From the IMG/VR virus record IMGVR_UViG_3300032322_002595, positions 1 through 23,063 of that record: 23,063 bases of DNA; one strand, given 5' to 3'. Positions 7,508-14,341 of the stretch are shown here, in pieces. The notes beneath the pieces are model-generated. The model was not told the DNA's origin, made no database searches, and saw nothing but the letters and a program-made list of their open reading frames with translations. This DNA is from a virus. Both the position numbers and the translations under genes were made by a program. Positions within the stretch are counted from its first letter, which is position 1; each line of letters begins with the position of its first letter.

Positions 7508-8059
7508 CTATAGATTTTTACCCCAACGTGTGTTAATCTTGTTCCAATTCATAATCTTCCATGTATTCTCTAAGTATTGCTTCTTGTCTGCTTGATAGTC
7601 TAGTGCCCAAGCGTGTTCCCACCAGTCTACTAGAATCAATATATCGTCACGAACCTCATGATTTACGATTGTTTTTATATCCCCACTGTATGACATATAA
7701 ATCCAACCACTGCCCTGTATTTTCATGGCTTCTAGTTTGAATTGTTCTTTAAAATCACGCCACCAACCATACTTGCGTTTTATTAAATTGAGTACAGGAC
7801 CGTTAGGTGTGTTACTGTCTTGTGGACTACGAAATTGCGAAAAGTAAATGTTGTGCAGAAATACACCAGCATAATTGAAGTCATCATCGCCTTCATTATT
7901 ATTGTATCGTTTAGCATAACCTTTTGCAAGATTATCGTAATGATACTCTATGGTGTCTTTGCTTAATACAGGAGCTAAGTCGGTGGGTGAGTACTTGAGT
8001 TTTTCAATCTCAATGTGTTTTCTTCGGGATTCTGATAGACTCTCTACAATATCATACAT
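7508..8059 (-). CDS. Fe/Mn-family superoxide dismutase with N-terminal extension
   Basis: Catalyses dismutation of superoxide to peroxide and oxygen. The four metal ligands are in place: H40 (TIEYHYDNL), H69 (VFLHNIYF), D145 and H149 (LVDWWEHAWALDY). The GSGW motif lies at 116-119. The outer-sphere glutamine of Fe-type enzymes (H69 minus 4) is Gly65, and the position used for Gln in Mn-type enzymes is His134 (VNHEVR), as described in some archaeal and mycobacterial SODs, so metal choice cannot be assigned. About 20 residues precede the usual SOD start (LKYSPTDL); they contain LSE followed by Ser, which fits a T4 prohead-protease site but is not proof. The start has no Shine-Dalgarno and lies 7 nt after a late-promoter motif, so a leaderless late mRNA is possible. 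It sits between IF-1 and the glycosyltransferase. Confidence 0.9.
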   Translation of the reverse strand: MYDIVESLSESRRKHIEIEKLKYSPTDLAPVLSKDTIEYHYDNLAKGYAKRYNNNEGDDDFNYAGVFLHNIYFSQFRSPQDSNTPNGPVLNLIKRKYGWWRDFKEQFKLEAMKIQGSGWIYMSYSGDIKTIVNHEVRDDILILVDWWEHAWALDYQADKKQYLENTWKIMNWNKINTRWGKNL

Positions 8060-9519: not shown

Positions 9520-11199
9520 TTATTTAAAAAGATTTTTAAATTTGGTAAAATAACTATCATCTTCTGGTGGGATTTTTTCTGTAGCTTGATACTCTTTGCT
9601 AAATTTGTCTCCGGCAGCAGTCTGTAGTTTTTCCATACGTTTGTCATAATCTTGCCATGCTTTCGGATCAACTTCTGGATCTGATTTGGGCGGTAATGTT
9701 GATGTGTTTAATTTTGACTGGCGTTCTTTGTCTAATTGCTCTTTATCTAATCGTGCTTGACGTTCTTTACTAAATTTCTCGCCGGCTGCAGCTTGTAGTT
9801 TTTCCATTCTTGCATCATATTCAGGAGTGCCTACAGTTAACTCTGGTTTTTGTTTTACAGGTTGCGGTTCAGGTTTTACATTTTGCTGTGGTTTATTTGC
9901 ATCAACGTATTGTTGAACAATATTAGGTTCTGTTTTAGTTGTTTTAGTAGCAGGTGGCTCTGATGTAATCTTTGCTGGCGGAGCTGTCGTAGTAGGCTCT
10001 ACATTTGTCTTTGGTGGTTCTTTTGGGGTTACACCAGGTTTATACATTTGACTTATATAACCACCGTATTTTTGATATCCTTGCGGTGCTAAATGTACAT
10101 CATCTCCGCCCCTCACTTCTTTACTAGTGGGTGCTGTTCCTAAATCTAGTATGTCTCTTGACTCTAACGATTTTAATAATTCTTGTCTTAGTTCTTCACG
10201 TTTCTGTTGTAGTTTAGGATTTGCGCTGGCAGTTGGTAACATATAGACTACCTGATGACCTTGTGCTTTACTTGCTGCTATTGTCTTATTAACTTGATCA
10301 ACAATATCAGATAATTTTTTACTACCCAAATCATTTGCACCTATACTTAACGCTACTACACTTCCGGGAGGGATATTTTTAATATTTTTCAAATGTTGTT
10401 TATCAAATGCACTTGATCCTTTTACACCAAGGTTATTCCATGCAATATTGTTTTTGGGATCGTTACTATATCCTCCCACCCCTTGTGCATGACTATCACC
10501 TACTGCGTAATATCCTGGTTTACCTTTAGCTACTGCTGGCGTATCCTTAGCAGTTGCAGGACCGGAACTGATTGTAGGCCCTAAAATATTGCTTGCTACA
10601 TTTTTAATTTTATCTAGTGTTGACGGTTCTGTTTTCGCAACTTGTGTGTCTTTTGTTTTGTCTAACTCATACTGTGTTTTGAGTTCAGCAACATTGTCAT
10701 TAACCCATTTCCAATTCTTTGGTCCGTACCCCTGTTTGATGTCTGATGCAGGTAAACTAGCCCATTGGCTTTTTGTTTTCCTAACTGCATTTATGAAATC
10801 ACCTTGTAGTATGGAATTCAATGCACCTCTGTCTGCAAGCATTTGTATTGCAATTTTATCTTGTGACTCTGGACTAAAATCTTTAAGATTTAGTCTTTTG
10901 GAATAAGGTCCCCAATTAAATCCCATAATCTGATATCTACCAGCCGCATCACTTGGTATTATTTTTTTAAGTGACTTTAGATAAACTGTTTGGTTGGGAT
11001 GTGTACTAAAATCTTTGAATTTACCACCACCAACAATAGTGTTGTAATCAGTATTTCCTTCTGCCCTTGATATTAAATCAAGCATGATACGAACATTGGG
11101 ATCTTTTCTTAATTGATCCAGCCTTTCATTATCCAATGTAGAACGTTGCTGAGGTTGAAAGCGACTTGGTGCTTCAAAAATAAATTCTTTTGCTCTCAT
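9520..11199 (-). CDS. Lambda R-like muramidase fused to SGNH hydrolase, capsid-targeting-like N-terminus
   Basis: A 559-residue protein with four parts. (1) MRAKEFIFEA resembles the T4 capsid-targeting peptide MKTYQEFIAEA, with a prohead-protease-like site after IFE9. (2) Residues 38-175 align by eye with phage lambda endolysin R (GH104-type lytic transglycosylase): LDLISRAEGNTDYN with likely catalytic E47, IVGGGKFKDFSTHPN, DAAGRYQIM, LKDFSPESQDKIA, RGAL and WASLP. (3) Residues 228-390 form an SGNH/GDSL hydrolase: GDSHAQG with S236, SIGANDLG with N290, and DDVHLAPQGY with D366 and H369. (4) A Pro/Thr/Lys-rich tail contains two copies of YD-x-RMEKLQ-x-AAG-x-KFSKE (461-479, 519-537). No signal peptide. 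It overlaps the next upstream gene by 1 nt (TAATG). It probably cuts peptidoglycan, and the esterase may deacetylate glycan; packaging in the head is inferred. Confidence 0.85.
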   Translation of the reverse strand: MRAKEFIFEAPSRFQPQQRSTLDNERLDQLRKDPNVRIMLDLISRAEGNTDYNTIVGGGKFKDFSTHPNQTVYLKSLKKIIPSDAAGRYQIMGFNWGPYSKRLNLKDFSPESQDKIAIQMLADRGALNSILQGDFINAVRKTKSQWASLPASDIKQGYGPKNWKWVNDNVAELKTQYELDKTKDTQVAKTEPSTLDKIKNVASNILGPTISSGPATAKDTPAVAKGKPGYYAVGDSHAQGVGGYSNDPKNNIAWNNLGVKGSSAFDKQHLKNIKNIPPGSVVALSIGANDLGSKKLSDIVDQVNKTIAASKAQGHQVVYMLPTASANPKLQQKREELRQELLKSLESRDILDLGTAPTSKEVRGGDDVHLAPQGYQKYGGYISQMYKPGVTPKEPPKTNVEPTTTAPPAKITSEPPATKTTKTEPNIVQQYVDANKPQQNVKPEPQPVKQKPELTVGTPEYDARMEKLQAAAGEKFSKERQARLDKEQLDKERQSKLNTSTLPPKSDPEVDPKAWQDYDKRMEKLQTAAGDKFSKEYQATEKIPPEDDSYFTKFKNLFK

Positions 11200-11840
11200 T
11201 ATTGCTTGATTAGTCTTATAATAGATTTTAGTAAATCATCCTCACCGTCATTATCTTCTTCTGCAACAGTTTGCGGCTGATTAGCAGATACATACTGGCT
11301 TGCTAAACTTGGCTCAGCCGCAGGTGGTTTAGAACCTACAGAAGCAGTCGTTGGCTGAGTTGCAGCTTTTGGTTGGTTAGCAGCTACGTATTGACTTGCT
11401 AAGCTAGGCTGACTTGCAGCAGTTGTTGGTTGCGCTGTGGTTGTTGCCTGTGCAGTCTGAGTTGTACCACCTATTGCATTAGTTTTTGCTGCATCCGATG
11501 CTGCTGATTGGGTTGCACTTGCTGGCGTTGCTGCTTTTGGATTATTACCCAATGCGTATTGAACTTTAGTAGGATCATATCCACCACCATACTGCTGATT
11601 AGTATTCACTGTTTGGGGTGCAGGTGTATTAATTTTTCCTGATGCCGTCTGTTGTTGTAAACGATTTCTAGCGGCTGTAGCCTGAGCATTCACTCCAGCA
11701 GCTGGCACCGCCGCAGACTGAGTTGGTGCATTAATACTCTTACCAAATGCTGCAGCATTCGGATCATTTGGGTTTATAGCTGTAGCCGGAGCCTCGTTTA
11801 TAATATCTATATATTTTCTAAAAAAATTAGTATCGTTCAT
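11199..11840 (-). CDS. Ala/Gln/Thr-rich putative internal head protein (213 aa)
   Basis: The protein begins MNDTNFFRKYIDIINEAPAT, very like the neighbouring 622-aa protein (MSDRQFFRKYLDIISEADN) and like T4 internal-protein targeting peptides; a prohead-protease-type site follows INE16. The rest is low complexity, rich in Ala, Gln, Thr, Pro and Asn, with two copies of EPSLASQYV-x-ANQP-like sequence (the first with QPSLASQ) that recur once in the muramidase protein (QQYVDANKPQ). It ends with an acidic patch and a hydrophobic helix (DDLLKSIIRLIKQ). There is no enzymatic signature. The start has AAGGAAAAC upstream, 13 nt after the 622-aa gene, so the two are co-transcribed. A role as head-internal or scaffold-like protein is inferred from the N-terminus. 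Confidence 0.65.
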   Translation of the reverse strand: MNDTNFFRKYIDIINEAPATAINPNDPNAAAFGKSINAPTQSAAVPAAGVNAQATAARNRLQQQTASGKINTPAPQTVNTNQQYGGGYDPTKVQYALGNNPKAATPASATQSAASDAAKTNAIGGTTQTAQATTTAQPTTAASQPSLASQYVAANQPKAATQPTTASVGSKPPAAEPSLASQYVSANQPQTVAEEDNDGEDDLLKSIIRLIKQ

Positions 11841-11853
11841 TTGTTTTCCTTAA

Positions 11854-13722
11854 TTACCATGCTCTGCAAGACCAATATCTTGCCTTCCAACGTGGTCCAG
11901 GATTCTCACAACGATGGCGCGCTCTGAAACTCTTTCTACGACTTGGATTTGATTTTTTAATCTTCATGTTCTTGTCGCCGAAGTTTACTTTAACTACTTT
12001 ACCATTTGGCTTCTTAACATAGACTTTTGACTTAGCAACGTCACCTGCCATTGGCTTACCCAATGGCACTTTACGACCTTGATATTCGGCTTCGTTTATA
12101 CTAGCACGGAATTGTGACATTGGACCTTGTCCGCCTTTTTCAGTGTAATCCATCCAAGGCTTGCTGACGTTTTGCTGGAAGTCTTGTGTAACTTCTCCGT
12201 CTTTATCTCTTGACATTAAGTAAGAACCTGTACCCGTTTTTGGATTACGTGAGAATGACTTTGATGAAAAATCCGAACTTACTTTTCCATCCTTCTGTGT
12301 TGTTTTGTGGTCTTGATAAACCGACATCATGGTTTCGTCTTCGTATCCTTCTTTAGCAATGTAATCTTTTGGATCTCCTTTAAGTGGTTTGGCTTTTAGG
12401 GGCTCCTTGTCAATTAATTTAGACGTATCTATATTTGTATCTGTTGCTGGTTTGGTATCAATATAATTATCAGATGGTTTATCTTTTTTATTTGTGTCAG
12501 GTTTAGATTGTGTAGTTTCTTCCTCACACAGGATATTATTCACTTCCAATAACCCTAACAATGTTTCATCTGCTTCAATGATAATACCATCTTCTGTAAA
12601 ACCAATGATACCTGTTTCAATTACAAAGTGTTCGTTTAACTCAATATCAAAACTATCATGTAATTCTATAGATTCAGTTAACTCTGTTTTTTCAGATGAT
12701 TCATTTAATATGCTATAGAATTTTTTAAAGCTATCGTTTTCGTTTGTGGTTTGTTTTTGTCTACCACTTAATCTTACTATCTTTTGTAATTCTTCTTCTA
12801 ATTCTTCCTCTGTAGTTTGTTGAGGTTGAGTTGGTTGCGGTGCTGCAGGCGTAGTTGGTTGAGTTGGCGCAGGAGCTGCTTGTTGTGCTGCAGGCGCAGT
12901 TGGTTGGGTTGGTGCTGCCGCAGGACCTGCTGGTGCGGTAGGTTGATTCGGTGCTACTTCTAATGGACTTCCTAATTTTGGTCTACCGTATTGATCTTTT
13001 GCTACTTGTAAATTAGTAGTCGTTTGATTTGCAGCAGTTGGACTAACAGGCGCTGCTGCTACTGTTCTAGCAATATCTCTTCCCGCAGAGCCGCTCGGGG
13101 CATATTTGTTTGCTTCTAAATCGTAAATATCTTTTTCAGTATATTTTTTTCCAACATTAGGTTGTATCGGCTGCATGAGACTAGGATCATAAAATCCTTT
13201 TCCTGCTTTTTTATCTGCTTGATCCTGTGCACCTATATTACCTATTTGTTTAAAATTTTGTGCTGCTTGTTGTTGATAATCATCAGGTATATTATCTAGT
13301 TCTGCAAACTGTGCTTTGTATGCGTCTTGTTGGTCTTTTGGAAGTGCAGCAAATTCCTTACTTGCCATTCCCTGTTTTGCTATTTTTTGTAGTTGGGCTT
13401 TGCTAGGTAAATTTTTTACTGCACCGGCTGCTTGATTAGATAATCCTTGAAGATCACCACTAGCATACATATCCATAGTTTTTTGATCGGCCCCTGCGCT
13501 TTTCATCGTGCCTAACTCTGCTGCTCTTTGCTGTGCAACTTGCAATGGAGTCTGGTTAGGAGTAGCTGCATCTTGTGCTTGTCTTGCAGCTAGTTCTTCT
13601 GGGCTAACACCCAAATTACCCATCGTATTTTCTATATCTTGCTGGGTTCCAGTTCTTCTGCCGAAGTTATCGGCTTCACTAATAATATCTAAATATTTTC
13701 TGAAAAATTGACGATCTGACAT
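11854..13722 (-). CDS. Putative head protein with two capsid-targeting-like segments (622 aa)
   Basis: Residues 1-17 (FFRKYLDIISEA) are a capsid-targeting-like peptide with a possible cleavage after ISE16. Residues 18-305 are rich in Gln, Ala and Pro. Residues 305-323 (TEEELEEELQKIVRLSGRQ) resemble the C-terminus of the 213-aa neighbour. Immediately after comes a second targeting-like peptide, SFKKFYSILNES (331-342), with further L-x-E sites at LTE350 and LNE364, then an acidic domain to about 400. The basic C-terminal block (about 540-622) includes KVYVKKPNGKVVKVNFGD and KKSNPSRRKSFRARH, with H603, C605 and C619 as possible metal ligands and aromatic residues at the end; this block recurs in uncharacterised proteins of aquatic T4-like phages. 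It appears to be a fusion of two packaged proteins. Start at 13722 has AAAGG upstream and a late promoter. Biochemical function is unknown. Confidence 0.7.
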   Translation of the reverse strand: MSDRQFFRKYLDIISEADNFGRRTGTQQDIENTMGNLGVSPEELAARQAQDAATPNQTPLQVAQQRAAELGTMKSAGADQKTMDMYASGDLQGLSNQAAGAVKNLPSKAQLQKIAKQGMASKEFAALPKDQQDAYKAQFAELDNIPDDYQQQAAQNFKQIGNIGAQDQADKKAGKGFYDPSLMQPIQPNVGKKYTEKDIYDLEANKYAPSGSAGRDIARTVAAAPVSPTAANQTTTNLQVAKDQYGRPKLGSPLEVAPNQPTAPAGPAAAPTQPTAPAAQQAAPAPTQPTTPAAPQPTQPQQTTEEELEEELQKIVRLSGRQKQTTNENDSFKKFYSILNESSEKTELTESIELHDSFDIELNEHFVIETGIIGFTEDGIIIEADETLLGLLEVNNILCEEETTQSKPDTNKKDKPSDNYIDTKPATDTNIDTSKLIDKEPLKAKPLKGDPKDYIAKEGYEDETMMSVYQDHKTTQKDGKVSSDFSSKSFSRNPKTGTGSYLMSRDKDGEVTQDFQQNVSKPWMDYTEKGGQGPMSQFRASINEAEYQGRKVPLGKPMAGDVAKSKVYVKKPNGKVVKVNFGDKNMKIKKSNPSRRKSFRARHRCENPGPRWKARYWSCRAW

Positions 13723-13756
13723 AGTATACCTTTGTTATGGTGATATACTATTTATC
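13721..13756 (-). promoter_or_regulatory. Late promoter overlapping the 5' arm of a start-codon hairpin (622-aa gene)
   Basis: GATAAATA (13756-13749), a full match to the late element, overlaps the stop of the HAD gene. It runs into ATAGTATA (13751-13744), which pairs perfectly with TATACTAT (13728-13721); the last two bases of that arm are the A and T of the start codon. The 15-nt loop contains the Shine-Dalgarno AAAGG. With T4 spacing, transcription begins near 13743, the first base after the 5' arm, so late RNA would not form the hairpin. Confidence 0.6.
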
Positions 13757-14341
13757 TAGGTAGGGTCCGTAAATCTCGTTTAGTTTTTTGATAGTGTCGT
13801 TGGTATTGTTCCAACGATGCAGAACTCCTATGCCACCTGCACTTTCCCAACTACTGATATACTTCTTGTGGTCGTCAATAAGTACGTTAGGTTGCCCACC
13901 CTTCATTGCATAGCGTTCCTTCATGCCGTCAAAGATAGCAGGCATATTTGAATTATGTTGGCTGAGCCAATACTTCTTCCCCTCAATACTAGCTTTAGTG
14001 ATAATCTTTTTCTTATCTTCTTTAGGTGATCTTAGTGGGGCTGATAACACAGTGCAAGGTATGTTATTTTTAGATATCCAGCTTAGTATTTCGGCACATC
14101 CCGATAATACAGGAAGTGTAGCAAAGAAGTTGTAAACAAAGTCAGGACCTTCTGCTTGCAGTGCTGCGATACTTATTTCACGTTGTTCTTTGTCCCCAAT
14201 GTCTTTATACCACTGAATGCTGGGATCATTCATTTTTGTACTCCACCAACGTGCCCATTGGGTGAAGAAGTCGGCTTGGACCCCATCCATATCTAAAAAT
14301 AGATGCGGCATCTTATCCGATTCTAGATCAGCGGCCCTCAT
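13748..14341 (-). CDS. HAD-superfamily phosphatase, 5'(3')-nucleotidase-like
   Basis: A 197-residue HAD hydrolase. Motif I is FLDMDGV with nucleophile D17 and acid/base D19; motif II is TVLSAP (S100); a Lys-containing segment around KERYAMKGG may supply motif III; motif IV is VLIDDH (D156, D157). Spacing and the DMDGVQADF start are like phage and bacterial 5'(3')-deoxyribonucleotidases, so dephosphorylation of nucleotides is the best guess; substrate is not certain. I keep ATG 14341 because GAGGAG lies 7 nt upstream; ATG 14311 (MPHLFLDMDG) would also leave the domain intact. It overlaps the hidden 47-aa membrane ORF by 14 nt. Its last codons form part of the late promoter for the next gene. 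Confidence 0.8.
   Translation of the reverse strand: MRAADLESDKMPHLFLDMDGVQADFFTQWARWWSTKMNDPSIQWYKDIGDKEQREISIAALQAEGPDFVYNFFATLPVLSGCAEILSWISKNNIPCTVLSAPLRSPKEDKKKIITKASIEGKKYWLSQHNSNMPAIFDGMKERYAMKGGQPNVLIDDHKKYISSWESAGGIGVLHRWNNTNDTIKKLNEIYGPYLDK

Follow-up and report, generated by a model that had tools for sequence, protein, structure and literature searches.

We identified three neighbouring proteins (P1, P2 and P3) encoded in a viral DNA fragment from IMG/VR whose N-terminal peptides we read, with a probability of about three in four, as T4-type capsid-targeting leaders on head cargo that would be cut by a prohead protease. The fragment, all 23,063 bases of which were analysed, is referred to below as the window. 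A preliminary description had named the three N-termini, and each was found on the minus strand where it had been placed: MRAKEFIFE|A in P1, MNDTNFFRKYIDIINE|A in P2 and MSDRQFFRKYLDIISE|A in P3, the bar denoting the predicted cut. The features of the window discussed here are as follows.

7508..8059, minus strand: Fe/Mn superoxide dismutase with the N-terminal extension MYDIVESLSE|S
9520..11199, minus strand: P1, 559 residues; leader, lambda-R-type muramidase, putative GDSL/SGNH esterase and low-complexity tail
10072..10506, minus strand: putative GDSL/SGNH esterase domain of P1, residues 232-376; GDSH, GAND and DxxH blocks present
10735..11091, minus strand: muramidase domain of P1, approximately residues 37-155; phrog_90
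11173..11199, minus strand: P1 leader MRAKEFIFE, predicted cut before Ala10
11199..11840, minus strand: P2, 213 residues, low-complexity, with leader
11793..11840, minus strand: P2 leader, predicted cut before Ala17
11854..13722, minus strand: P3, a composite protein of 622 residues
11857..12090, minus strand: HVA1-like domain at the P3 C-terminus, residues 545-622; phrog_7595; preceded by the joint INE|A545
12700..12732, minus strand: internal leader of P3, residues 331-341, SFKKFYSILNE|S
13675..13722, minus strand: P3 N-terminal leader, predicted cut before Ala17
13748..14341, minus strand: NT5C-type nucleotidase with the degenerate start MRAADLE

The bodies behind the three leaders differ. 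P1 appears to join disparate catalytic domains, a muramidase and a putative esterase, in one polypeptide: the first matched lambda lysozyme (1am7) with E=1.8e-22, and the second matched PF13472 with E=1.5e-6, which is below the curated Pfam cut-off. The low-complexity tail of P1 ends in DDSYFTKFKNLFK. P2 carries repeats of the form SLASQYV[AS]ANQP and has the C-terminus DDLLKSIIRLIKQ; the shorter repeat QYV[ADS]AN[QK]P is common to the P1 tail and P2 (11274-11309 and 11370-11405). P3 consists, in order, of its leader, a helical and low-complexity module, the internal leader, a module marked by ELHDSFDIEL and the C-terminal HVA1-like basic domain, HVA1 being the annotation given in roseophages to the family of small, basic domains to which it belongs. 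An AlphaFold model of P3 was poor (mean pLDDT 48) and served solely as a pointer to helical leaders, hinting that the P3 leaders are helices. Two C-terminal motifs, EEELEEELQKI[LV]xLSG and DDSY[FY]TKFxNLFK, recur at the ends of leader modules in relatives. The adjacent NT5C nucleotidase has a counterpart in the related genome G013 that begins MKTKEFLTE|N; the MRAADLE start in the window does not fit (L/I)xE, and we do not claim it as a working leader.

The comparison with T4 was made against its genome record (NC_000866), which shows the leader MKTYQEFIAE|A at the starts of ipII and ipIII and also contains MAKINELLRE|S in gp24 and SFLTE|A in gp23; the cut marks on these sequences follow the literature. 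The new leaders end in I-F-E (P1) and I-x-E (P2 and P3), which fits (L/I)-x-E. Targeting of T4 ipIII involves residues 4 and 7 and its processing residues 8 and 10, and the cleavage motif is L/I-X-E (PMC9026906). The F, I and E of MRAKEFIFE align with ipIII residues 7, 8 and 10. Like the internal proteins IPI-III and Alt of T4, which are cut by gp21, the proteins described here have a short leader with an aromatic residue and an (L/I)-x-E end (EFIAE|A versus EFIFE|A), several unrelated cargo proteins occur per phage, and the S77 prohead protease and a Gp23 capsid protein are present in related genomes. They differ from T4 in the leaders themselves (MRAxEF[IL]xE and FFRKY[IL]DIIxE), in the greater variety of the cargo and in having internal leaders within polyproteins. 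The T4 internal proteins and Alt are known capsid-targeted proteins; here packaging is predicted.

We then asked how often the P1 type of leader occurs. A leader of the MRAxEF[IL]xE type, counted with the pattern M[RK].{1,3}[EDQ][FY][ILVMF].E that was composed after the data had been seen, stands at the start of 30 of 1638 ORFs of related large phages; 0.14 would be expected when residues 2-15 are shuffled and 0.22 from the rate at internal Met codons. These leaders are far from chance. Because a related DNA pattern had been used to select five of the genomes (G046, G049, G062, G075 and G076), the rate in those five is inflated. No such selection applied to G004 and G013, and G004, found through P3, has the leader on 7 of its 167 ORFs, which follow one another almost without a break at 86.3-93.4 kb. 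The DNA form of the leader gave many matches in contigs of relatives, and the reversed pattern gave almost none. When the leader was removed, 244 proteins fell into 45 body clusters, with 28 singletons and one loose chain of 73. The domains found behind it include GH19 (five members), SLT, phage lysozyme with LysM, ADPrib_exo_Tox, ART-PolyVal, Kinase-PolyVal, GNAT, amidoligase, NT5C and ParB_N, and the P1 homologues (L112, L003 and L109) start with the same type of leader. The leader is thus modular and carried on unrelated bodies. These results bear on a rival view, in which P1 would be a conventional endolysin or tail lysozyme and the T4 likeness of the three N-termini would come from chance or a shared helix propensity. 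Muramidases of the lambda R type are indeed common as endolysins, yet dozens of unrelated bodies carry the leader, its 30 starts compare with approximately 0.2 expected, and domain searches found no lysis domain in P2 or P3, so that we consider this explanation very unlikely. Outside the window the residue after the leader Glu is highly variable (A, S, G, N, D, Q, Y and others), and cutting therefore need not apply to every leader.

Two GH19-type muramidases and five tandem pairs illustrate the range of proteins with the MRA leader:

L204:3858-4493, minus strand: GH19-type muramidase with MRA leader; Tat signal RRGFLRGL directly after the leader
L154:2992-3612, plus strand: GH19-type muramidase with MRA leader
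L313:11956-12704; L296:14382-15154; G049:94767-95539: tandem MRA pairs
G075:216692-217497; G076:258302-259068: tandem MRA pairs

In the first of these, MDRRGFLRGLAG, a Tat signal (PF10518), follows immediately behind the leader, and the arrangement looks as though a gene already complete had gained the tag at its start. The tandem pairs, found in five jumbo contigs, encode small proteins (approximately 125 residues) and in most of the five lie near a terminase-large-like gene; tblastn matched the pair to no isolate. The MRA-type pattern likewise had no match in the isolates RaK2, CBB, XaC1 and Atu_ph07, all of which have S77, and we found no report of the MRA leader in the open-licence literature.

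P2 and P3 share a second type of leader, FFRKY[IL]DI[IL]xE. In 1.72 million ORF residues its pattern occurred at 12 distinct places, each either a leader at an N-terminus or a joint within a polyprotein, including one in an unrelated 170-residue protein close to the capsid gene of G075. The modules of P2 and P3 are arranged differently among relatives. In the nearest relative, G001 (L112), they lie in a single protein of 807 residues with a leader before each; the joints preceding the successive modules are, in order, FFRKYIDIVNE|E, RMRKLLDMLDE|A, SLKKFYNILNE|A and VNE|A, and the same genome encodes a 302-residue protein with MSAQQFFRKYLDILNE|Q. In L003 and L109, P3 is a gene of its own starting with MDRDFFRKYLDILSE|S, the same module that in the window follows SFKKFYSILNE|S, and P2 is fused behind another module through the joint MRKYMDFLDE|A. 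In the window, P3 is fused and P2 is separate. The joints retain a leader in either module arrangement.

The reading of these peptides as leaders calls for a prohead protease. None of the S77 type was found in the window, a fragment of 23 kb. The leaders themselves, their modularity, the P3 joint, and the S77 protease and capsid site of relatives speak for the core of the proposal in the preliminary description, which we regard as supported in part. All six MRA-leader contigs in which Gp23 was found (G046, G049, G062, G075, G076 and G113) also have S77. In the first five of these the gene order is core protein, S77, scaffold, capsid, with roles assigned by position and by the S77 and Gp23 matches, and in their capsid proteins LLAE|S or YLKE|N aligns with LTE|A of T4 gp23. 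In G062, a contig of 345 kb, a single in-frame TAA breaks the Gp23 capsid gene (G062:C1:193317-194306); it may reflect a sequencing error, a split gene or recoding. Three large leader-bearing contigs (G026, G105 and G120) have neither S77 nor Gp23; since Gp23 is also absent, these contigs appear to miss the head region. Searches for S77 and Gp23 among the first 41 relatives gave few matches, most of these relatives being fragments. The T4 late promoter word TATAAATA was seen 0 times on the two strands of the window against 3.6 expected, so late timing is unsupported; this phage group may use another promoter than the T4 late word.

The last domain of P3 allowed the joint to be compared in phages with and without the protease. 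Glu-Ala directly precedes this domain in 43 of 46 distinct contexts with recognised starts, the domain itself beginning [EKTV]-Y-Q-G or close to it; the residue two before the joint Glu is mostly hydrophobic, and the sequence upstream of the joint is otherwise unrelated. In the S77-bearing isolates C48C1, HTVC008M and immuto the joints are LTE|A, LEE|A and LDE|G. In six small phages without detectable S77, the only head protease searched for in them, the protein with the same domain begins M-A at the joint point: MAKY in Kolga, HTVC111P and HTVC202P, MATY in CRP-901, and MAID in CRP-235 and HTVC106P, which are more diverged. Cutting at E|A would therefore restore a natural N-terminal Ala. The joint Ala may belong to the domain, and the Glu is the residue that appears together with the protease. 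Other head proteases may be at work in the small phages.

A link to virions comes from Pseudomonas phage PA5oct, in which distant homologues of two leader families other than those of P1-P3, gp282 and gp279, are virion proteins identified by ESI-MS/MS; their N-termini have no clean (L/I)xE end. One PA5oct homologue, of the leader family MKTFAQYLIES, is located among neck and tail genes. This location would suit a different explanation, in which the leaders are docking helices that stay uncut and attach proteins to the assembling scaffold, neck or tail, xxE being a feature of the helix, and the variable residue after Glu in many leaders would suit it as well. Against it stand the HVA1 joint, with E|A where S77 is present and M|A where it is not, the retention of (L/I)xE at the joints of polyprotein modules and the same type of site in the capsid protein, and on balance we regard uncut docking helices as improbable. 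A cultured phage in which the idea of cleavable leaders could suitably be tested is the Salicola isolate SCTP-2 (440 kb, with S77), where the leader MK[IV]KHITQYLFE|S recurs on several neighbouring genes; by eye, its continuation resembles MRVTEFIAE|GYKEVAQ of G075.

L393:17423-22464: leader-repeating genes of SCTP-2

The head-cargo operon of three genes proposed at the outset is too narrow, as the leader set is much larger, takes in internal joints and perhaps extends to a superoxide dismutase. Three sites in the window had been overlooked: the internal leader of P3 (residues 331-341), the joint INE|A545 and LSE|S on the dismutase extension. An N-terminal extension with an (L/I/V/M/F)xE-like motif was present in 42 of 42 distinct related dismutases (including L339-L388). 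Among script-anchored sequences the motif was found in 14 of 14, against a control rate of 0.38, and 13 further representatives were inspected visually; since the dismutases are related, the count is suggestive only. The enzyme may be a further head cargo, the case being weaker than for P1-P3.

For P1, P2 and P3, read as head cargo of a large T4-like phage, we infer packaging and cleavage, and delivery to the host is plausible. Specifically, the short amphipathic leader would recruit the three proteins to the prohead core, and a gp21-type (S77) prohead protease would remove it after (L/I)-x-E. P3 would consist of fused cargo units that the protease cuts at SFKKFYSILNE|S and INE|A into two or three mature pieces. 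The cargo would be delivered with the DNA, P1 then cutting peptidoglycan with its muramidase and removing ester groups with its esterase. Within this reading, P2 and P3 might be cut and packaged but act in the head, in DNA condensation or core filling, and never be delivered. P2 and parts of P3 are of low complexity with acidic ends and the HVA1-like domain is small and basic, as such a role might suggest, but in relatives the leaders are attached to enzymes of host-acting types, for which injection has been proposed in other phages (PMC5512222), and we give retention in the head roughly one chance in four of being right.

Two known systems beyond T4 are comparable. In the giant phages SPN3US and phiKZ, a protease related to gp21 trims the propeptides of head and ejection proteins after x-x-E, and the proteins are packaged with the DNA (PMC5694885). 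The phages studied here are likewise large, with predicted x-x-E cut sites and, in relatives, a gp21-related protease. Most propeptides of SPN3US and phiKZ exceed 100 residues, whereas the leaders described here have approximately 7-16, and the capsid protein encoded in related genomes is of the Gp23 type. Polyvalent proteins are multidomain proteins with lysozyme, ART, GNAT or kinase domains that are thought to be injected with DNA (PMC5512222). The same multidomain types occur here as in the polyvalent proteins of phages and conjugative elements, with the difference that the units are joined by leader-like, potentially cuttable joints; the text of PMC5512222 contains no mention of 'leader'.

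As a tentative extension, more probably wrong than right, these phages may make cargo polyproteins, in which fused units keep their leaders as internal cut sites and are separated in the head by the prohead protease. The short tag would admit many genes, including the superoxide dismutase and the Tat muramidase of L204; the latter, once it had entered the new host, would be exported by it. The internal leaders point to an easy way in which such polyproteins might be made and split. The leader set would broaden the scheme of the T4 internal proteins and Alt into a wide-ranging system of exchangeable cargo. As a readable tag it would make head cargo predictable in large uncultured phages from their sequences, and many genes now called hypothetical would become testable effectors of early infection.
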